Shown: piece after piece, positions 40,634 to 49,423 of the stretch
Numbering within the stretch: the first letter of the stretch is position 1
Layout of the letters: the number at the start of each line of letters is the position of its first letter
Source of the DNA: an uncultured Clostridia bacterium
Lineage (GTDB): Bacteria; Bacillota; Clostridia; Lachnospirales; Lachnospiraceae
DNA length: 64,000 nt
Assembly (NCBI GenBank): GCA_948467395.1
Contig: CAOKDX010000001.1
Location: 124,001 to 188,000 of the forward strand
Reading direction: 5' to 3'
Position numbers and translations under genes: made by a program
Notes under the pieces: generated by a model
What the model was told of the DNA's origin: nothing
Seen by the model: only the letters and a program-made list of their open reading frames with translations
The model's database searches: none

Positions 40634-40665
40634 AGAAACGGGTTCAAATTGGCGTCATTGAGCTA
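40634..40665. repeat. Dispersed element copy at the end of the ydjH-like gene
   Basis: This 32-base stretch beginning AGAAACGGGTTC and ending CATTGAGCTA differs by one base from 41466-41497. It includes the stop codon and last codons of the ydjH-like gene. Confidence 0.7.
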
Positions 40666-41431
40666 AGACCTCATCCACATTGCTGAAGGCCCAGGCGTGG
40701 ATATTGATCTCGATAACCGGAGTGCCGCAATAATCACAGGTTTTGGCGCCCAGGGAAGAGATCGGTGCGCCGCAGTTGGGACAGTTCAGCCCGATGGCAT
40801 TGTCTGTTTCATTTTCTACCAGATCCCGGTCCTGGATATAGATAAGGTCAATGTTGTATTTGGTCTGGTATTTGTATTCCCGTGAACCTTCCTGTACCAT
40901 ATTAGAGGGATCGCCTGCCTTTGTTATATAATGATAGCATTGGAGGGCAGACTGGAAGGTGATCCTGCACCTTCCCTCTGTCTTTTGGTACTGGCTGATC
41001 TCAGTCCGGTGGATCTTGATCTGGTGGAAATGTTCCTGCAGATCCTGGGCAGAGAGCATCTGAATATGGTTTTCCAGCTGGTCTCTGAGTTCCCTGCTGC
41101 CGTCCTGTAAAAGAGCGGGGCGGCGTTCTGTCACTGCACGCAGAAAGCTGGTAAGTATATTTTCTGCCCGTTCCTTCATTTCATCGTACTGGAAATCAGG
41201 GAAATCCATGGTGATTTTCGGAAGGAGCAGGCTGGTCATGGCGGAGACGGACTTCGGCGTGGCGGAGTACTCCTGTTTCATCTGTTCCGCCGCCCGGCTG
41301 ATGTCGGATGTCCCAAACAGGGCCCGGGAAAATTCCCGGGTTTTGTTCCGCAGATAGACTACTCCAAAATAAACGGCAAGGACGACTGCCAGAATCAGTA
41401 CTAAAATAATAATGATGGGTAAATATTTCAT
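40655..41431 (-). CDS. ydjH: YdjH-like membrane protein with Tim44-like and zinc-ribbon regions
   Basis: The protein is 258 aa. One N-terminal membrane helix (YLPIIIILVLILAVVLAVYF) is followed by a cytoplasmic Tim44-like domain (about 50-205) and a C-terminal zinc ribbon, CPNCGAPI...CDYCGTPV. In Bacillus subtilis YdjG, YdjH and YdjI form a membrane complex with the PspA homologue YdjF; this protein matches YdjH in layout. Here the order is ydjI-ydjG-ydjH on the minus strand, and no pspA is next to them. A palindromic element lies on each side of the gene. Symbol given by analogy. Confidence 0.75.
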   Translation of the reverse strand: MKYLPIIIILVLILAVVLAVYFGVVYLRNKTREFSRALFGTSDISRAAEQMKQEYSATPKSVSAMTSLLLPKITMDFPDFQYDEMKERAENILTSFLRAVTERRPALLQDGSRELRDQLENHIQMLSAQDLQEHFHQIKIHRTEISQYQKTEGRCRITFQSALQCYHYITKAGDPSNMVQEGSREYKYQTKYNIDLIYIQDRDLVENETDNAIGLNCPNCGAPISSLGAKTCDYCGTPVIEINIHAWAFSNVDEVLAQ

Positions 41432-41445
41432 GCGTTCTCCTCCCT

Positions 41446-41497
41446 TAGCTCAATGGCGCCAATTTAGAAACGGGTTCAAATTGGCGCCATTGAGCTA
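41446..41497. repeat. Dispersed palindromic element, full-length copy
   Basis: Perfect 20-base arms, TAGCTCAATGGCGCCAATTT (41446-41465) and its complement (41478-41497), enclose the 12-base loop AGAAACGGGTTC. It sits between the ydjG- and ydjH-like genes. It is the best-preserved member of the repeat family. Confidence 0.85.
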
Positions 41498-41514
41498 CAA
41501 CAAAAAAGTTGTTA

Positions 41515-42615
41515 TTACTGCATTACCTTGAAATAACAGAACAATCCAAGGGCGATCAGGATAACTAATGTAGTCAGAATGATCTTCGGAATGGAAAGAG
41601 GGGTTCTCCCTGCCACCTTACCAGTCTGCCCATTCACCATAAACTGGTACACCTTGTCTTTGTATTTAAAATTCGAGATCCAGATAGGCAGCAGCAGATA
41701 CTTGTACGTGATATTGGTGTATTCGGTCCTCACGGAAAGGCTCCGTACGGTATCGGCTGCGTTCTCACGCCGTATGTGGTCAGAAATATTGCGGGCCAGC
41801 TTATCTTTGATGGAGGCCATGGCGTAGCTCCAGGCATCCTTCAGTCCGATCGAATACCGCTCAGCAACGAAGCCTGCGATGTACTCTGGCTGATAGGTCT
41901 TATTATTTTCCGTATCAAAGGGCTCCAGCTTCTGAAGGATTGACATATCATGATTTCTGGAGGCCAGCACCAGCTCGTCATTGATAAATTCATTGTATGT
42001 ACCGGACGTATTGTACCAGTTTGTCTCCGTGCGGGTTTCCCCGCTCTCGTCCTCGATCAGGTGACGGATGCCGTATTGTCCTTGATAGGAGGAACAGGTG
42101 TCGGAGTCAAAGGTCCAGTACGGCAGATAGATACCTTTAAAGCGCTTTGGCTTTGCACTGTCCCTGGCGAGCTTTGGGCAGAACCATTTCCGTTTGATCC
42201 ATTTTTTAAACAGAGTCGAGGCCTGTTCATCGCTGATGCGGAAGGGGACGACGCCGCCCGGTGCCATCGTATCCTGGTCGTTTGCTTCCATTACCTGATT
42301 GGAGCCGCAGAAGGGACATACGGCAGAGGTCTGCAGGGCATCGTAGATGGATTCTGCGCCGCAGGCCTTGCAGAGAACGGTTTTTTTCTCGGCTCCCCAG
42401 TCCTCGCTGGCGGTGTGCTCCGCGGCAAAAAAGTCCAGTTCTTCCGCTTTTTGGGGAGCATCCTCCTGTATTTTGATGGCCTCCTCATAATCGCAGTACG
42501 GACATTTCAGGCTGCCGGTGGCAGGGTCAAAATCCATGACGCCGCCGCACTGGGGGCATTTCCGGTCGGTTTCTTCTTTTGTGTCAACTATATTCATATC
42601 ATTAAAATCATCCAT
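41515..42615 (-). CDS. ydjG: YdjG-like zinc-ribbon membrane protein
   Basis: The protein is 366 aa. Residues 15-45 hold a TFIIB-type zinc ribbon (CPQCGG...CPYCDY) and a second ribbon lies at about 82-105 (CKACGA...CPFCGS). A conserved central domain follows (about 115-330, KGIYLPYWTFDSDT, YLLLPIWISNFKYKDK), then one C-terminal membrane helix (IILTTLVILIALGLFCYF). In B. subtilis YdjG helps recruit the SPFH protein YdjI to the membrane. The protein belongs to the group sometimes mislabelled as a PriA-like helicase. It has no helicase motifs. Confidence 0.75.
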   Translation of the reverse strand: MDDFNDMNIVDTKEETDRKCPQCGGVMDFDPATGSLKCPYCDYEEAIKIQEDAPQKAEELDFFAAEHTASEDWGAEKKTVLCKACGAESIYDALQTSAVCPFCGSNQVMEANDQDTMAPGGVVPFRISDEQASTLFKKWIKRKWFCPKLARDSAKPKRFKGIYLPYWTFDSDTCSSYQGQYGIRHLIEDESGETRTETNWYNTSGTYNEFINDELVLASRNHDMSILQKLEPFDTENNKTYQPEYIAGFVAERYSIGLKDAWSYAMASIKDKLARNISDHIRRENAADTVRSLSVRTEYTNITYKYLLLPIWISNFKYKDKVYQFMVNGQTGKVAGRTPLSIPKIILTTLVILIALGLFCYFKVMQ

Positions 42616-42710
42616 TTGGGGTATCCTCCTTCTGACCGGGCGGCGCCGGAATGGGGGGGCTTAGAAGCTGCAAATGAATCCCCCCGCATCCGGCCTGCCT
42701 TACTCTGTCC

Positions 42711-44069
42711 TTACTGTATGTCATTCTCATCAAAAACATCGCCGCACTCCGGGCAGAACTTCGGCGGATGATGTGGATCCTCCGGCTGCCAGCCGCATTT
42801 GTCGCATCGGTAGAGCGGTGCATCGGCGGGTTTCTTCGTTCCGCATTCCTGACAGAATTTGCCCTGATTGACAGCTCCGCAGGAGCAGGTCCAGCCGGTC
42901 TGCGGTGCCGGTTTAGCGCTGCCGCATTCGATGCAGAATTTACCTGTGTTCCGGGCTCCGCAGGAACAGGTCCAGGAAACGGCGGAGGCTGTTTCAGAGG
43001 CGGACGGCTGTTGGGGAGCAGCGGGAGCGGGAGTCACCGGAGGAGTGCCGCCCTGCTGCTGCCCCATGGCGAACAGAGATCCGGCGTCCATGCCGCCTGC
43101 CTGATTTGCCATATTCATGCCGGCAAATGCCATCATGGGTCCGGTGGATGTATTGGCGGCGGCGGATTTCATTGCCTCTGCCTGGGCGCCCACCAGGGTG
43201 GCAGCCGCCATATTTGGATTCCGAAGAACGGCTGTTTTCTGGAGATCCTTGATCATCTGCTCATCCTCTTCGGATGCCTTAATGGTATTTACACCGAATG
43301 AGACGATCCGGATCCCGCGCAATTCACTCCATTTCTCCGATAATACTTTATTGAGGGCATCGGCAACCTCCATTGTGTGAGCCGGCACGGCGCTATACCG
43401 GATGCCCATGGCGGAAATCTGTGCAAATGCCGGCTGGAGAGCGGTCATCAGCTCGGATTTTAACTGGCTCTCAATCTTGTCCCGGGTGAATTCTTCGGAA
43501 ACATTGCCGCACACATGGGTGTAGAAGAGAATCGGGTCGAAGATCTGGTAGGAATACTCTCCATTGCAGCGGACGGAGATATCGGCGTCCAGGCCGATAT
43601 TGGCATCCACTACGCGGAAGGGAACCGGGTTGGCCGTTCCGTACCGGTTGCCCATAATCTCTTTTGTGTTAAAGAAGTAAACCCGCTGATCCTTTCCCGT
43701 ATCGCCGCCAAAGGTAAAGCGTTTGCCGATGGAGGCGAAGGTTTTTCCGATATTTTCGCCCAGATTACCGCTAAGCAGGCTCGGTTCCGAGGAGGTATCG
43801 TATAAAAATTCCCCTGCCTCCGCGCAGAATTCTACTACCTTTCCCTGATCGACGATGATCATGCACTGTCCCTCATTGACAGCTACGACGGATCCGTTGC
43901 TGATAATGTTGTCGTTTCCCTTGTTGCTGGATCCAAATTTACCGCTGGCCCTTCTCCGGCCCTTCACAACTAATACATCCGATTCCAATGCATCGCAATA
44001 AAAATATTCTTTCCACTGGTCTGCGGCAACCCCGCGGATGGCACCTGAAATTGCTTTGATTAATCCCAT
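42711..44069 (-). CDS. ydjI: YdjI-like SPFH-domain protein with zinc ribbons
   Basis: The protein is 452 aa. The N-terminus MGLIKAISGAIRGVAADQWK is typical of the virion-core-like/YdjI family. An SPFH domain spans about 60-270 (VAVNEGQCMIIVDQGKVVEF, GIRIVSFGVNTIKA). A helical and Gln/Pro-rich linker follows. The C-terminus has three zinc ribbons: CSCGARNTGKFCIECG, CSCGAVNQGKFCQECG and CDKCGW...CPECGD, more than the B. subtilis protein is known for. It probably forms a membrane microdomain scaffold linked to envelope stress. It leads the operon and has its own promoter. Confidence 0.85.
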   Translation of the reverse strand: MGLIKAISGAIRGVAADQWKEYFYCDALESDVLVVKGRRRASGKFGSSNKGNDNIISNGSVVAVNEGQCMIIVDQGKVVEFCAEAGEFLYDTSSEPSLLSGNLGENIGKTFASIGKRFTFGGDTGKDQRVYFFNTKEIMGNRYGTANPVPFRVVDANIGLDADISVRCNGEYSYQIFDPILFYTHVCGNVSEEFTRDKIESQLKSELMTALQPAFAQISAMGIRYSAVPAHTMEVADALNKVLSEKWSELRGIRIVSFGVNTIKASEEDEQMIKDLQKTAVLRNPNMAAATLVGAQAEAMKSAAANTSTGPMMAFAGMNMANQAGGMDAGSLFAMGQQQGGTPPVTPAPAAPQQPSASETASAVSWTCSCGARNTGKFCIECGSAKPAPQTGWTCSCGAVNQGKFCQECGTKKPADAPLYRCDKCGWQPEDPHHPPKFCPECGDVFDENDIQ

Positions 44070-44116
44070 AATAATCCTCCCTAAAAAAGTTCTGCAGATT
44101 TTGTAATAAATTGTCA

Positions 44117-44144
44117 GTTATAATAATTATACATTTTCGGTCAA
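44117..44144 (-). promoter_or_regulatory. Promoter of the ydjI-ydjG-ydjH operon
   Basis: On the minus strand, TTGACC (44144-44139), 16-base spacer and TATAAC (44122-44117), about 48 bases before the ydjI-like start. GGGAGG precedes the ATG. Confidence 0.55.
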
Positions 44145-44183
44145 GAAATGTCTATCATTATTCCTTGTGCCGGAGAAAGAATT

Positions 44184-45365
44184 TTATGTCCGGGGGTCTA
44201 ATAATTTGCGGGACAGGTTATCTATGCAGACCGCTCCCAGGGGGGCGGTAATGAGAATAGACAGGACGGCGACAGTCAGTACCATTTGTCCACAGGCCAA
44301 TCCCATAGTGAGCGGAATTGCCCCGATGGCTGCCTGAACGGTAGCCTTCGGCGTGTAAGCTATCATGCAAAACCATCTTTCGCGCTTTGTAAGCCCTGTC
44401 CTTACAAGGGATAATGCCACACCGGCCATCCGGAACGCCAGCGCTCCCACAACAAGCAGAACGGCAAAGATTCCTGCCGAGACGGCATATCTCAAATCAA
44501 CGGCTGCGCCTACCAGTACGAACAGGAAAATTTCTGCGGCCAGCCATAACTTGTTATATTTCGCGGATAACCGTTCCGCCAGGACGGGATAGCAGCGCCG
44601 GATCAGGATTCCTGCGCTCATAACAGCCAGAAGTCCGGAAAGCGGCAGAATTCCTTCCAAATAGTCCTCCCATCCGAGGAGCAGGAAGGAAAGGCTGAGG
44701 AGGATCAATATTTTAACCGAATCCCTCATATGAACCTTTTTGAAAAAGAATACCAGTGCATACCCCGCAGCTGCCCCTGTGAGGATACCTGAAACGATAG
44801 ACACCGGTATCTGTAAAAAATCAATGACAGATACCGTACCGGTAGAGGCTAAGGAGATGAATGCCGTAAAAAGTACGATGACGAATACATCATCCACCGA
44901 CGCTCCCGCCAATAAGAGCTGGGGGATACTGTGTTTCCTTCCATAGCCATCATCCATCAGCCGGATCATTCTCGGGACGATAACGGCCGGGGATACAGCG
45001 GCAGTGACACTGCCGATCACAGCGGCTTCTAATGCCGTCACGCCCAATAACAGAGGGGCCAGTACGATCACCCCTGCTATTTCTGCACAGGCGGGAACAA
45101 AGCACATGAGGACTGCCGGCCGGCCCACCTTCTTTAAGTCGGCGATGTTTAATGCCAGCCCCGCCCTTGTTAAAATGATCACCAGGGCGAGCTGCCGCAG
45201 ATCCGGGGAAATGTCCAGGATAGAGGAGTCGATTGCATGGAGTGCATAGGGACCCAGAACAATTCCAACGAGAATCATTCCCAGGAGACTGGGCAGCCTT
45301 AATTTGGAGAAAATATTTCCGAATAATAATCCCAGTAACAAAATCATTGCGACACTTGTGAGCAT
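44184..45365 (-). CDS. Cation:proton antiporter (CPA family)
   Basis: The protein is about 393 aa with around twelve membrane helices. LPSLLGMILVGIVLGPYAL, VTAAVSPAVIVPRM and GASVDDVFVIVLF are the conserved core helices; the Asp pair in VDD is the likely ion site. It exchanges Na+ or K+ for H+. GGAGGA is eight bases before ATG 45365, while the ATG at 45389 has no site. It is downstream of the DUF4230 gene on the same strand (about 30 bases), so they may be co-transcribed. Confidence 0.9.
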   Translation of the reverse strand: MLTSVAMILLLGLLFGNIFSKLRLPSLLGMILVGIVLGPYALHAIDSSILDISPDLRQLALVIILTRAGLALNIADLKKVGRPAVLMCFVPACAEIAGVIVLAPLLLGVTALEAAVIGSVTAAVSPAVIVPRMIRLMDDGYGRKHSIPQLLLAGASVDDVFVIVLFTAFISLASTGTVSVIDFLQIPVSIVSGILTGAAAGYALVFFFKKVHMRDSVKILILLSLSFLLLGWEDYLEGILPLSGLLAVMSAGILIRRCYPVLAERLSAKYNKLWLAAEIFLFVLVGAAVDLRYAVSAGIFAVLLVVGALAFRMAGVALSLVRTGLTKRERWFCMIAYTPKATVQAAIGAIPLTMGLACGQMVLTVAVLSILITAPLGAVCIDNLSRKLLDPRT

Positions 45366-45395
45366 ACAAATTCCTCCGTTTCTTATCATTTCGTA

Positions 45396-46025
45396 TTATT
45401 TTTTTATAAATTCTATCTTATATTTTCCGAGATCGTATTCGCTGCCAAAGAAACCGGTCAGGATGGCCTCGGCATTTTTCCGCGCATTTTCCAGCAGCCC
45501 GTTGGCGATGGCATTTTCCTCCGCCGTCTGTTTTAAACGGTTCATGGCTTCGTTATTTTCGGCCAGTGTGATATGCTTGAAGATACTTTCCTTTTCATGG
45601 TAGACCTTGAAAGAATCCGCCCGGATCTCCCGGCTGAATATCTCCACCTCCGGCAGCTTTACTTCAATGACAGCGTTATGTACGGACCATTCAATCTCTC
45701 CGAAATCAATGCCCGCTTTGATCTCCACATCATAGCTGTACACATATTTGCTCTGGGTAAAGGGGATGGTCAGGCCGAACAGCTCCTGACGGGCTTCTGT
45801 TACATTCACCTCGGTACAGCAGGCGGCCTGTGTGGACAGCTCTCCGATATCCTCAAAGCCGATCCGGGTCGTCTTTGCATCATGCAGAAGGAATTCCTTG
45901 GTCCCAATGGCCCCCGCCGCCAGCACAAGGCTGGCCGCAATGGCTGCGGTGATGATCCTTCTGGTGAAAAAGCCTGACATAAGGTGGGATTTTTTCCGGT
46001 TTTTTATTATGATCCTACTTCCCAT
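45396..46025 (-). CDS. DUF4230 family membrane-anchored protein
   Basis: The protein is 209 aa. One N-terminal membrane segment (about 21-42, IITAAIAASLVLAAGAIG) is followed by an extracytoplasmic DUF4230 domain (ELSTQAACCTEVNVT, YSYDVEIKAGIDF, VKLPEVEIF) and a helix-rich tail ending FGSEYDLGKYKIEFIKK. The family has no known function. AGGAGG lies 12 bases before ATG 46025, rather long; ATG 45980 has no site. It may be co-transcribed with the antiporter. Confidence 0.78.
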   Translation of the reverse strand: MGSRIIIKNRKKSHLMSGFFTRRIITAAIAASLVLAAGAIGTKEFLLHDAKTTRIGFEDIGELSTQAACCTEVNVTEARQELFGLTIPFTQSKYVYSYDVEIKAGIDFGEIEWSVHNAVIEVKLPEVEIFSREIRADSFKVYHEKESIFKHITLAENNEAMNRLKQTAEENAIANGLLENARKNAEAILTGFFGSEYDLGKYKIEFIKK

Positions 46026-46136
46026 AGCGAAGCTGGCCTCCTATCGATCCCATACAAAAAGCCGTATGTCCCTGCCTGTCTGGTGTGGGACACACGGCCT
46101 GCTGCAGCGAATATAACAGTTAAATATATGCGCACA

Positions 46137-48128
46137 TCATTTGCCCTTATTCCGAAATTCCACCGGAGTCATCTGATAAAGTTTCTTAAATGTCCGGTTA
46201 AAGTGTTCGACATTCTGGTATCCGATGGAAAAGGCAATGTTTTCCACCGTCATATTTCCGTTTTTCAGTAAGGTCCTGGCCTTCTTCATCCGTATATTTG
46301 TCACCTGCTCCACGAAAGTCCTGCCGGATTTCTCGTGAATGTATTTGCTGATATAGGGTTCGCTCAGATGAAAATGCTCCGCCATATCGTCTAGTGTCAC
46401 GGTCTGGTAATTGGCATGGATAAAGTTCATCATCTGAATCAGGCGTTCGTCCTTGATCGGTTCCGTTTTCTTGATATCCGGCAGCTTATTTACGCAGACA
46501 CAGAGCGCATGTATGGACGCTTTGATGATATCCTCGTCTATGCCGGCGCCCCAGTAGGAGTCACCCTGGCAGGTGATGCCCACATAGGCGATGGCCCGGG
46601 AGGAAGAGCCCTGGGTCAGGGCGTGTTCTTCGTAAGAGGACAGCTGGTAACTGATGCCGAAATACTGTTTGATCGTATTGCTTACGGCATCCAGCCGTCC
46701 GTTGCCGTTGGCGTCCACAATGGTCTTTTTGTCGCCGCAGCAGATCTCTGTTTCCGCCATAATGCCGTCGACCTGCCGGAAGTGGCAGTCCGTAATCTGG
46801 AAATAAGGAGTCGGCGTGATATAATGTTCTTCGAATATTTCGTAGACCCACTGCGGAGAGAGCTCCTTATGCTCCTCGTCGGATACGTGTTTCATCGTGT
46901 AGCCCACCTCTTCCCGCATGGCATCCGGAAGTGATATGCCGAAATTCTGTTTCAGAATATAGTTGACGCCGCCCTTGCCGGACTGGCTGTTAATGCGGAT
47001 CACATCGGAGTCATAGGTCCTTCCCACATCCTGGGGATCCACAGGAAGATAGGGGACGCTCCAGATCTTCAGATTTTTGTCCTCGCGCCACTGCATTCCC
47101 TTGGCGATGGCATCCTGGTGGGAACCGGAGAAGGCCGTGAATACCAGATCTCCGGCATATGGCTGGCGGGGATCCACATGCATCCGGGTACAGGTCTCAT
47201 ATTTCTCGCGGATCTCCGGCATCCGGGAAAAGTCCAGCAGCGGATCCACTCCGTGGGAAAACATATTCATGGCCAGGGTTACGATATCTACATTGCCAGT
47301 GCGCTCGCCGTTGCCGAATAAGGTTCCCTCAATGCGGTCCGCCCCGGCAAGGATCCCCAGCTCGGCGTCGCTTACACCACAGCCCCGGTCATTGTGGGGG
47401 TGCAGGGAGAGCACGACAGCGTCGCGGTATTTCAGATGCTTGTGCACATACTCGATCTGCGTGGCGAACACATGGGGCATGGAATACTCCACCGTAGAGG
47501 GGATGTTAATGATGGCCTTGTTGTCCGCGGATGGCTTCCATATATCCAAAACGGCATTGCATACCTCCACCGCATACTCCACCTCTGTGCCGGTGAAGCT
47601 CTCGGGGCTGTATTCAAAGGAAAAGCTGCCGTCTGTCTCATCTGCCAGCTGTTTCAGAAGGATGGCGCCGTCTATGGCGATCTGTTTGATCTCTTCCTTA
47701 CTCTTCTTAAATACCTGTTCGCGCTGTGCCACGGATGTGGAATTGTACAGATGTACTACGGCGTGGGGAGCGCCCTTTACGGCTTCGAAGGTCTTCTTGA
47801 TAATGTGTTCCCTGGCCTGGGTCAGTACCTGAACGGTCACATCATCCGGGATCATATTTTTCTCGATGAGTGCCCGCATAAATTCATATTCCGTCTCGGA
47901 AGCCGCGGGAAATCCCACCTCGATCTGCTTAAAGCCGATATCTACCAGCATCTGGAAGAACTGCAGCTTTTCGTCCAGGCTCATGGGTTCGATCAGAGCC
48001 TGGTTGCCATCCCGCAGGTCTACGGAGCACCAGACCGGCGGCTTGTCGATGGCGTCTTTCTCCACCCAGTCGTAGGTACATTCCGGCGGCATAAAATAAG
48101 CCTTTTCATACTTGTCAACATGTTTCAT
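46137..48128 (-). CDS. leuA: 2-isopropylmalate synthase fused to an AraC-type DNA-binding domain
   Basis: The protein is 663 aa in one unbroken frame. Residues about 1-400 form the HMGL-like barrel (SVDLRDGNQALIEPMS with catalytic Arg-Asp, HPHNDRG metal site, GNGERTGNVD). Residues about 440-555 are the LeuA dimerisation/allosteric region (VDANGNGRLDAV). Residues 560-663 are a complete AraC C-terminal domain with two HTH motifs: LDDMAEHFHLSEPYISKYIH and VENIAFSIGYQNVEHFNRTF, then MTPVEF. The enzyme makes 2-isopropylmalate from acetyl-CoA and 2-oxoisovalerate, the first step to leucine. The added domain suggests it also binds DNA, perhaps according to leucine level (inference). A T-box leader and a palindrome lie upstream. 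No leuBCD is nearby. Confidence 0.93.
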   Translation of the reverse strand: MKHVDKYEKAYFMPPECTYDWVEKDAIDKPPVWCSVDLRDGNQALIEPMSLDEKLQFFQMLVDIGFKQIEVGFPAASETEYEFMRALIEKNMIPDDVTVQVLTQAREHIIKKTFEAVKGAPHAVVHLYNSTSVAQREQVFKKSKEEIKQIAIDGAILLKQLADETDGSFSFEYSPESFTGTEVEYAVEVCNAVLDIWKPSADNKAIINIPSTVEYSMPHVFATQIEYVHKHLKYRDAVVLSLHPHNDRGCGVSDAELGILAGADRIEGTLFGNGERTGNVDIVTLAMNMFSHGVDPLLDFSRMPEIREKYETCTRMHVDPRQPYAGDLVFTAFSGSHQDAIAKGMQWREDKNLKIWSVPYLPVDPQDVGRTYDSDVIRINSQSGKGGVNYILKQNFGISLPDAMREEVGYTMKHVSDEEHKELSPQWVYEIFEEHYITPTPYFQITDCHFRQVDGIMAETEICCGDKKTIVDANGNGRLDAVSNTIKQYFGISYQLSSYEEHALTQGSSSRAIAYVGITCQGDSYWGAGIDEDIIKASIHALCVCVNKLPDIKKTEPIKDERLIQMMNFIHANYQTVTLDDMAEHFHLSEPYISKYIHEKSGRTFVEQVTNIRMKKARTLLKNGNMTVENIAFSIGYQNVEHFNRTFKKLYQMTPVEFRNKGK

Positions 48129-48149
48129 TTCTCAATACCTCCAATTTAC

Positions 48150-48455
48150 TCATTTCTGATAAATACATGGAAAAACCTCCGCCTCCACAACCAGGCGGTT
48201 GTAGAGACGAAGGTGTATCGACCTTCGCGGTACCACTCTACTTCATATCCATGGGGGGGCTCCCATAGATATGCTCTCATCGGCACTAACATGCCTTTCC
48301 CGGGTAACGGCGGGGGTCCGGTGTACCTTACATAAGAATAAAGGGTTCGGGTACACAGCTCAGGGGTCAGTTCACTGCTGTTATTTTACTGCCTTGCACC
48401 GGACGGCAGCTCTCTGTAAAAAGAACGGGCAGTTACTAGTCCCCTTCAAAGCTTT
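48150..48455 (-). promoter_or_regulatory. T-box leader of leuA
   Basis: The minus-strand leader contains the conserved T-box AGAGTGGTACCGCG (plus-strand 48239-48226) and Stem I elements AGAGAGCTGCCG and GGTGCAAGGCAG. The likely specifier region is GTGAACTGACCCCTGAG, where CTG (48370-48368) followed by A would read a leucine codon. Downstream, GCGAAGGT/ACCTTCGT within GTAGAG...CTCTAC forms a competing hairpin, and CCGCCT...AGGCGG with TTTTT follows. Uncharged tRNA-Leu should therefore raise leuA expression. A possible -10 box TAAGAT is at 48467-48462. Confidence 0.88.
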
Positions 48456-48487
48456 TTTTATATCTTATCACATAAAATGCATTTTGG

Positions 48488-48509
48488 AAATGATTAAATT
48501 TAATCATTT
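48488..48509. promoter_or_regulatory. Perfect 22-bp palindrome upstream of the leuA promoter
   Basis: AAATGATTAAA (48488-48498) is followed directly by its reverse complement (48499-48509). It lies about 20 bases upstream of the putative leuA -10 box and 33 bases from the divergent tRNA-Arg promoter. It is a candidate operator, possibly for the AraC domain of the LeuA fusion or a separate leucine regulator. Confidence 0.5.
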
Positions 48510-48542
48510 TTATTGATGTTTTTTAATAAAACAAAAAAGTGC

Positions 48543-48571
48543 TTGACTTTTTTTGGCGGATTGAGTATCAT
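48543..48571 (+). promoter_or_regulatory. Promoter of tRNA-Arg
   Basis: TTGACT (48543-48548), 17-base spacer and TATCAT (48566-48571), 12 bases before the tRNA. Confidence 0.7.
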
Positions 48572-48583
48572 AATATTTGCGTT

Positions 48584-48657
48584 GTGCGTGTAGCTCAGCT
48601 GGATAGAGCACTTGGCTACGGACCAAGGTGTCGGGGGTTCGAATCCTCTCACGCACG
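48584..48657 (+). tRNA. tRNA-Arg (anticodon ACG)
   Basis: It is 74 bases: acceptor GTGCGTG pairs with CACGCAC, discriminator G; D-arm GCTCAGCTGGATAGAGC; anticodon loop CTACGGA; T-arm GGGGGTTCGAATCCTCT. A terminator follows 10 bases later. Confidence 0.95.
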
Positions 48658-48667
48658 TGATCATGAC

Positions 48668-48704
48668 AAGCCTTCGGAAAGACACGTTTTCGGAGGCTTA
48701 TTTT
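48668..48704. terminator. Terminator shared by tRNA-Arg and the transglycosylase gene
   Basis: Thirteen-base arms (48668-48680 and 48687-48699, with two G-U pairs) are followed by TATTTT. It overlaps the stop codon of the convergent GT51 gene. Confidence 0.7.
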
Positions 48705-49423
48705 GTTATATTTCCTAAAATTTCATTGGCTCTGGTCTCCGTGATCTTGTCGCAGTCAACCATTTTATCCAGGACAAGGGACATTCTCTTTCGGGCCAGC
48801 TCCATGCTGGTATCCGGGGAATAGTTGGACGGCGCATTGGGAATACCTGCCAGCATAATTGCCTCATAGTCCGTCAGCTCAGAGGGATTTTTGCCGTAAT
48901 AGCCCTGTGCCGCCTCGTAGATCCCGTAGTATCCGCTGCCAAAATAAATGGTATTGACATACAGCTCAAATAATTCTTCCTTGCTGTACTCCCGTTCCAG
49001 TGCTAACGCGGCAAAGATTTCTGCAAACTTGCGCTCTACCTTCTTTTCCTGGGTGAAGAGCTGGTTTTTGGCAATCTGCTGTGTAATGGTGCTTCCGCCC
49101 TCCACGAAGGAGAGGGAAATCATGTCCTTCCATACAGCCCTGCCGATGGCGATGGGGTCGATGCCGGGGTGAGTATAAAACCGTTTGTCCTCGGCGGAGA
49201 TCACCGCATCGGTATAGATGGCGGGAAGCTCTTTGTACTGCACGTAATGTCCGTTATCACGAATGGTTCTGCCTATCTCTGTGATGGGGGTCTCCCGTAC
49301 GGCGTCCTGATACATCTGGTAGCCCTTATAGCCAAAGTATGCGGCGGTGAGTGTGGCGATCACCAGCAGGATGGCAAGTAAGCGAAGGGCGGTCCTTCCG
49401 ATGACCCGCAGTATATATTTCAT
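48698..49423 (-). CDS. Monofunctional peptidoglycan transglycosylase (GT51)
   Basis: The protein is 241 aa. One N-terminal membrane helix (about 13-32) precedes a GT51 domain: AEDKRFYTHPGIDP with the catalytic Glu, GGSTITQQIAKN, and ALALEREYSKEELFELYVN. There is no transpeptidase domain, so it resembles MtgA. It polymerises lipid II into glycan strands outside the membrane. AAGGAG is nine bases before ATG. The small membrane protein gene at 49462-49620 lies just upstream on the same strand and may be co-transcribed. Confidence 0.93.
   Translation of the reverse strand: MKYILRVIGRTALRLLAILLVIATLTAAYFGYKGYQMYQDAVRETPITEIGRTIRDNGHYVQYKELPAIYTDAVISAEDKRFYTHPGIDPIAIGRAVWKDMISLSFVEGGSTITQQIAKNQLFTQEKKVERKFAEIFAALALEREYSKEELFELYVNTIYFGSGYYGIYEAAQGYYGKNPSELTDYEAIMLAGIPNAPSNYSPDTSMELARKRMSLVLDKMVDCDKITETRANEILGNITK

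Follow-up and report, generated by a model that had tools for sequence, protein, structure and literature searches.

A 2-isopropylmalate synthase fused to an AraC-type DNA-binding domain, and a conserved candidate operator upstream of its own gene, in Lachnospiraceae

Within a 64,000-nucleotide stretch of DNA from a member of the Lachnospiraceae (the window), we found a gene for 2-isopropylmalate synthase (LeuA) that continues in the same reading frame into an AraC-type DNA-binding domain. Comparison with related genomes suggests that this protein is probably an enzyme and at the same time a one-component transcription factor that activates the gene encoding it, with leucine presumably acting as the switch. 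In the mechanism we propose, the AraC double helix-turn-helix (HTH) of LeuA would bind a 38-bp site that lies upstream of leuA, and the bound fusion would recruit RNA polymerase to an extended -10 promoter without a usable -35 element (class II activation). The LeuA_dimer domain, where known LeuA proteins bind leucine at the interface of the dimer, would act as the sensor: without leucine the dimer would activate leuA and, in a few species, also leuCD, leuB-ilvD or ilvB, while with leucine both enzyme activity and transcription would drop. From these comparisons we infer DNA binding, activation rather than repression, and leucine as the signal. Enzymes with their own DNA-binding domain and AraC activators are already known; the conserved 38-bp site before fused leuA is the new result.

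Table 1 Features of the fused leuA locus in the window, and candidate operator-like places in other genomes
Feature	Location	Strand	Details
leuA-araC fusion gene	46137..48128	(-)	663 aa and stop
HMGL-like catalytic barrel	47205..48035	(-)	residues 32-308; Pfam 7e-73
IPMS_D2 post-catalytic domain	46950..47150	(-)	residues 327-393; Pfam 1e-33
LeuA_dimer allosteric (leucine-binding) domain	46482..46862	(-)	residues 423-549; Pfam 3e-22
Variable linker	46404..46481	(-)	residues ~550-575; mean modal-residue frequency 0.56
AraC-type double HTH (HTH_18)	46149..46385	(-)	residues 582-660; Pfam 5e-20
Terminator-like hairpin, end of T-box leader	48175..48214	(-)	
T-box leader RF00230	48200..48458	(-)	136.3 bits
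-10 hexamer TAAGAT	48462..48467	(-)	21 bp after the site; TGA before it (extended -10)
38-bp conserved site (putative operator) TTAAAAAACATCAATAAAAATGATTAAATTTAATCATT	48489..48526	(-)	from upstream-region comparison and matrix
Candidate extra site before leuC	G247		score 38.1
Candidate extra site before ilvB	G231		score 32.8
Candidate extra site before leuB-ilvD	G381		score 29.7
Candidate extra site before leuC-leuD	G256		score 25.4
Operator-like place between glutamate dehydrogenase and its neighbour, upstream of glutamate dehydrogenase	G012, L415 near 1738		score 28.4
Operator-like place before a sodium-symporter-like gene (by translation)	G231, L433 near 1589	(-)	score 26.2

The fusion protein, its spread and its constraint

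A preliminary description of this DNA had read the gene as one open frame of 663 codons that encodes a full LeuA followed by a full two-HTH AraC domain. Open reading frame and Pfam analyses confirmed this reading: the frame has no internal stops, and the AraC bounds originally given (residues 560-663) are correct to within the linker. The top NCBIfam model is 2-isopropylmalate synthase (NF002991, 799 bits against a cut-off of 455, residues 5-548), and naming the protein by this model alone would mask the regulator part. The AraC part scores above the gathering thresholds of both HTH_18 (72.1 bits, cut-off 33.6) and HTH_AraC (46.0 bits, cut-off 26.6), and its solved relatives are 6swi, 3lsg and MarA. 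Downstream of leuA, a cluster on the minus strand (window 40655-46025) encodes a DUF4230 protein, a Na+/H+ exchanger, an SPFH protein and two proteins that match zinc ribbons, in one case under the curated cut-off.

The best solved relative of the LeuA part is M. tuberculosis LeuA (1sr9). This enzyme (PRK03739/LeuA type, PDB 1sr9/3fig) shares the barrel, post-catalytic and LeuA_dimer domains with the fusion, as well as its catalytic positions and most of the positions that we take to form the leucine pocket. In the alignment, however, it stops after LeuA_dimer, whereas the fusion adds a 100-residue AraC domain. Its catalytic and metal residues, which we take to be R80, D81, E218, H285, H287, H379 and Y410, were mapped through this alignment to R39, D40, E176, H243, H245, H337 and Y360 of the fusion, with H337 and Y360 lying beyond the HMGL-like barrel. 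These positions are invariant in 108/108 fused rows and also in 70 unfused rows, and the presumed leucine-pocket positions are largely conserved. By sequence the fusion protein is a complete LeuA and, in the reading we propose, would be a working 2-isopropylmalate synthase.

The fused frame is present in 16 of the 25 genomes of the window's genus, counting the window's own genome and one in which the frame ends at a contig end. Of the others, G013 has an 82% identical LeuA that lacks the HTH, seven carry a distant LeuA, also unfused, and a search of G019 gave no LeuA match. The LeuA of seven same-genus genomes (L022-L024, L026-L029) is a different, unfused one, 50-52% identical and without operator or T-box (for L027 by pattern only), an apparent gene replacement. 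Family-wide, the fusion is encoded in one frame by 89 or more of 397 genomes and by about 79 of 334 genera (both hand counts), a lower bound among the matches listed down to E ~3e-252; in G101 the HTH is in another frame, and in G203 a contig end cuts the gene. An order-wide search with LeuA_dimer plus HTH identified the fusion in 50 of 392 genomes, with scores of 359-439 bits; all 50 belong to one family, and no other match among those listed exceeds 176 bits. A phylum-wide search of 398 genomes found four fusions, one of them (G1014) from another class. Finally, we searched named genomes with the HTH only. Of the best 80 of 543 confirmed matches, 75 are complete LeuA fusions, 4 run off a contig end and 1 has an out-of-frame HTH; among these best 80, this HTH subfamily travels only with LeuA. 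Named carriers include Roseburia inulinivorans DSM 16841 and Claveliimonas monacensis DSM 108991.

The preliminary description had proposed searching for other proteins with both domains and a conserved junction, and had warned that relatives might carry two separate genes or eroded HTH residues. The same junction recurs in about 79 genera (hand count); separate genes are not general, with the HTH out of the LeuA frame only in L104 and L108 of 178 tree rows; and no eroded HTH residues were seen in 25 aligned fused proteins. In L104 (the same locus as L344, genome G101) and L108 (G118), an intact HTH lies just past the LeuA stop in another frame and the operator is kept; these cases, one genome each, may reflect a natural split, slippage or a frameshift.

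Conservation of the HTH was comparable to that of the allosteric domain. Mean modal-residue frequency across 88 fused proteins was 0.739 for the HTH and 0.736 for LeuA_dimer, against 0.559 for the linker. Two stretches were invariant in 25 diverse fused members (P591, Y592, S594 and K595; E641, H642, F643 and R645), and these presumably occupy the expected positions of the AraC recognition helices. For 22 close pairs pooled, dN/dS was 0.013 in the HTH, 0.017 in the barrel and 0.026 in LeuA_dimer; these are rough values, with dS saturated in many pairs and some members shared between pairs. Judged by these sequence measures, the HTH of the fusion is under purifying selection.

That the fusion is a chance join or an assembly artefact with a decaying HTH is thus an explanation to which we give almost no credence. 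In its favour, many LeuA proteins of the family have no HTH, and the tree requires several state changes. Against it stand the junction shared by about 79 genera, the constraint on the HTH and the conservation of the upstream site. With 89 or more of the family's 397 sampled genomes encoding it, the fusion is not an assembly join, and recurrence in genus and family, HTH conservation and dN/dS together ruled out an assembly join or an eroded HTH.

A conserved site that follows the HTH

A repeated motif was first noticed when upstream regions were set side by side, with one match in the window against none expected. We trained a 38-column matrix on the upstream regions of fused leuA. Leave-one-out scores exceeded 8 within 600 bp in 80 of 88 fused loci, while the best score in 790 shuffled regions was 7.0; with the full available upstream sequence, 83 of 88 exceeded 8 (not leave-one-out). 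Unfused loci scored 6.8 or less in 68 of 70 cases, and the two exceptions, L104 (47.0) and L108 (30.5), both still encode the HTH. Since the matrix was trained on fused loci, new loci are the fair test. All 17 loci outside the training set, which come partly from genera represented in it, scored 25.5-48.2, including one (L296) that is cut by a contig end before the HTH. The fused locus from another class (G1014) scored 47.7, while an unfused locus with a 70% identical LeuA (G1060) scored -24.3. The full fusion of the cultured R. inulinivorans DSM 16841 has an upstream site scoring 45.9.

Among named genomes, which are partly the training genomes, 73 full fusions had enough upstream sequence, and 69 of these scored above 10 within 1 kb. 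Three of the four exceptions carry the site and a T-box core farther upstream, and L338 has only a weak place. In the two of these three whose ORFs were listed, L320 and L346, the operator and T-box are separated from leuA by a methyltransferase-like gene (~250 aa) that apparently belongs to one operon with leuA; L313 has similar distances. Read as direct repeats (22-23 bp spacing) or as inverted ones, the 38-bp site scores about equally well, and its half-sites are therefore left unassigned. An extra half-site of the TTAAAAAAcATCAA type occurs 68-118 bp downstream of the operator start, beyond the -10, in 23 of 102 loci (null 1.3%; L008, L010 and L045 among them); 20 of the 23 lie at 68-80 bp and 13 at 71 or 74 bp. 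Together, these data are strong comparative evidence that the fused AraC domain has a specific DNA site near the promoter it would regulate.

We next compared HTH and site across the 176 loci with enough upstream sequence, and found both in 104, neither in 67, the HTH only in 5 and the site only in none. The site is thus present in 104/109 HTH-encoding loci (103/108 without L296, whose HTH part is not seen) and in 0/67 loci without the HTH; where relatives have no HTH at all, the site is gone along with it. The five HTH loci with no recognised site within 1 kb, which count against the proposed mechanism, are L053, L079, L089, L093 and L101; L101 has a strong half-site, and in L089 a weak place lies at the correct spacing. 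Two fusions whose contigs end at residues 636 (L007) and 584 (L296) were counted as fused, and L282 (47 bp upstream) and L129 were excluded from the site counts. On a FastTree phylogeny of the LeuA part alone (178 rows, many weak branches), the HTH needs 11 changes of state and the site 16, a further point against the mechanism. Six independent pairs could be drawn on supported branches, and in these HTH and site changed the same way in a mean of 5.9 of the 6 and never in opposite directions (median p 0.031, range 0.031-0.125). The distant L030 (26% identical LeuA) is among the 70 unfused loci scored for the site and absent from the tree, and L160-L162 were excluded from both.

Co-occurrence is not binding, and the site could belong to an unrelated regulator with the same distribution, the LeuA HTH having another function or none. 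We regard this as very improbable. No HTH-less locus among the 67 keeps the site, both loci with an out-of-frame HTH keep it, and L017, from the window's genus, has lost HTH and site together and has a T-box. The best 80 of 543 HTH matches, which are full, contig-cut or out-of-frame LeuA fusions as given above, argue in the same direction.

Promoter layout and the T-box leader

We then asked how the site is placed relative to the promoter. A TAnnnT hexamer lies exactly 21 bp past the 38-mer in 68 of 84 sites, and 20-22 bp past it in 80 of 84. The extended -10 position commonly carries TG (T 82%, G 82%), and the -35 position matches TTGACA at a mean of 2.8 of 6 bases. A 21-bp spacing and a 17-bp spacer place the site about 2 bp into the -35 position. 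A general promoter scan of the minus strand in 45900-48800 found no sigma-70 promoter. A site next to an extended -10 without a good -35 is the layout of class II activators, and sites of AraC itself are likewise A/T-rich and lie beside promoters with a poor -35. The fused loci show this layout, in that the site abuts or overlaps a poor -35 at a fixed distance from the -10. A tRNA gene lies on the opposite strand (window 48584-48657, plus) between a transglycosylase gene and the leuA promoter.

The HTH could instead repress, with leucine-bound LeuA occupying the -35 region and shutting its own promoter. The ~2-bp overlap with the -35 would suit such a role, and so would the downstream half-site in 23/102 loci, which lies beyond the -10 as in looping or roadblock repression. 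However, the fixed -10 spacing (68/84 at exactly 21 bp) and the poor -35 fit an activator-dependent promoter better, and we consider repression rather unlikely. The preliminary description had suggested that the enzyme would regulate genes itself; the conserved site at leuA, its co-distribution with the HTH and the activator-like spacing lend strong support to a protein of this kind, probably an activator.

The leuA gene of the window is also preceded by a T-box leader, whose model starts four bases after the TAAGAT hexamer, behind the same promoter as the site. We take CTG (Leu) at 48368-48370 to be its probable specifier, by the general rule for placing T-box specifiers. Such a leader controls the same gene as the proposed activator, but acts by RNA attenuation in response to uncharged tRNA. 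The T-box core pattern was found in 22 of 107 fused versus 50 of 69 unfused loci, and independent pairs on the tree revealed no significant association of T-box with HTH. Among pattern-negative loci, an Rfam check found a T-box in 0/20 fused (of 85) and 0/17 unfused (of 19), with positive controls at 3/3. A simple specifier search read leucine codons in 5 of the 22 T-box loci with the fusion and in 15 of the 50 without it, plus one CCG; the remaining loci gave no specifier. We considered whether the fusion had replaced the T-box, a view we keep only in part: cores are rarer in fused loci, but the pairs are non-significant and the window has both. One unfused leuA locus with a T-box also carries a Clostridiales-1 small RNA (L120, 2458-2616, minus strand).

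Targets, signal and related systems

To look for other targets, whole genomes were scanned by pattern, and all 38 non-leuA places in genomes with the fusion were then scored with the matrix. With up to 3 mismatches, the leuA site was recovered in 19 of 20 fused genomes, together with 30 other places against 27 for a reversed control, and most non-leuA pattern places are therefore noise. A scan of another 76 genomes with the fusion, allowing up to 2 mismatches, gave 65 places in 58 of them: by hand count 57 are at leuA, and the 8 others equal the 8 of the reversed control. In 76 genomes without the fusion, 5 places compare with 4 in the control. Six of the 38 non-leuA places scored 25 or more, four before leucine or branched-chain genes and two elsewhere (Table 1; names of the leucine genes and glutamate dehydrogenase were checked with NCBIfam). 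Each of the four pathway sites is followed, 21 or 22 bp downstream, by a -10-like hexamer. The best place in an unfused genome scored 23.5. Because the two non-pathway places reach 28.4 and 26.2, the pathway sites at 25.4 and 29.7 rest on position as much as on score. A further operator-like place (19.2) lies between gltD and an ammonium-transporter-like gene (L417 near 1895, minus strand); this and the places in L415 and L433 may be links to amino-group or keto-acid supply, or chance. Upstream regions of leuC and leuB lacked the site in 38 of 40 cases from 20 fused genomes and in 20 of 20 from ten unfused genomes. With the site at only 2/40 of these loci, we rejected the strong form of the idea that the operator is a general leucine-pathway box, and the scarcity of sites beyond leuA marks leuA as the main target.

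In M. tuberculosis LeuA, the leucine pockets are at the dimer interface of the regulatory domain, and a loop closes when leucine binds (PMC11057210). Through pockets so placed, leucine could change how C-terminal HTHs are arranged. Leucine at the LeuA regulatory domain is a plausible signal, with the presumed pocket positions largely conserved. The same enzyme-regulator might instead respond to pathway flux, through 2-ketoisovalerate or 2-isopropylmalate at the active site. Activators of this pathway that sense intermediates do exist elsewhere (IlvY, yeast Leu3), and the catalytic site and the leucine pocket are equally invariant. The HTH is, however, joined directly to the leucine-binding domain, which, with the pockets at its dimer interface in M. 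tuberculosis LeuA (PMC11057210), is the natural place to change HTH geometry, and we consider a flux signal unlikely, though less so than repression.

AraC, RhaS and MelR, one-component activators of the AraC family, have a C-terminal double HTH as in the fusion, but in the fusion a biosynthetic enzyme with an allosteric domain of its own would take the place of the sensor. PutA, BirA and NadR are enzymes with their own DNA-binding domain that control transcription of their own pathway, and they are repressors, whereas the geometry of LeuA-AraC points to activation; no trigger enzyme of this kind is known to us that is a LeuA or that uses an AraC domain. Ada-type fusions combine an AraC HTH and an enzyme in one chain and autoactivate, but they serve DNA repair and signal by self-methylation, whereas the signal proposed for LeuA-AraC is the end product. 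To our knowledge no LeuA-AraC regulator has been described, and we found no description of the fusion in the open-access literature, judged by titles and abstract openings among the matches listed.

For the lineage as a whole, we lean towards leucine control exerted through the first enzyme alone, which would be catalyst, leucine sensor and activator with one dedicated operator at its own gene, where most sampled unfused relatives have a T-box at leuA instead. HTH and operator would be lost or gained as a unit, and control would occasionally extend to leuCD, leuB-ilvD or ilvB. The operator is predicted to the base, and the natural losses and the two out-of-frame cases provide comparisons. The fusion would also offer a direct test of how an allosteric enzyme turns into a transcription factor, and is a candidate leucine biosensor. 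If the proposed mechanism is true, a single allosteric site would govern both how active the pathway's first enzyme is and how much of it is made, a minimal feedback circuit that would be present in many gut and rumen bacteria.
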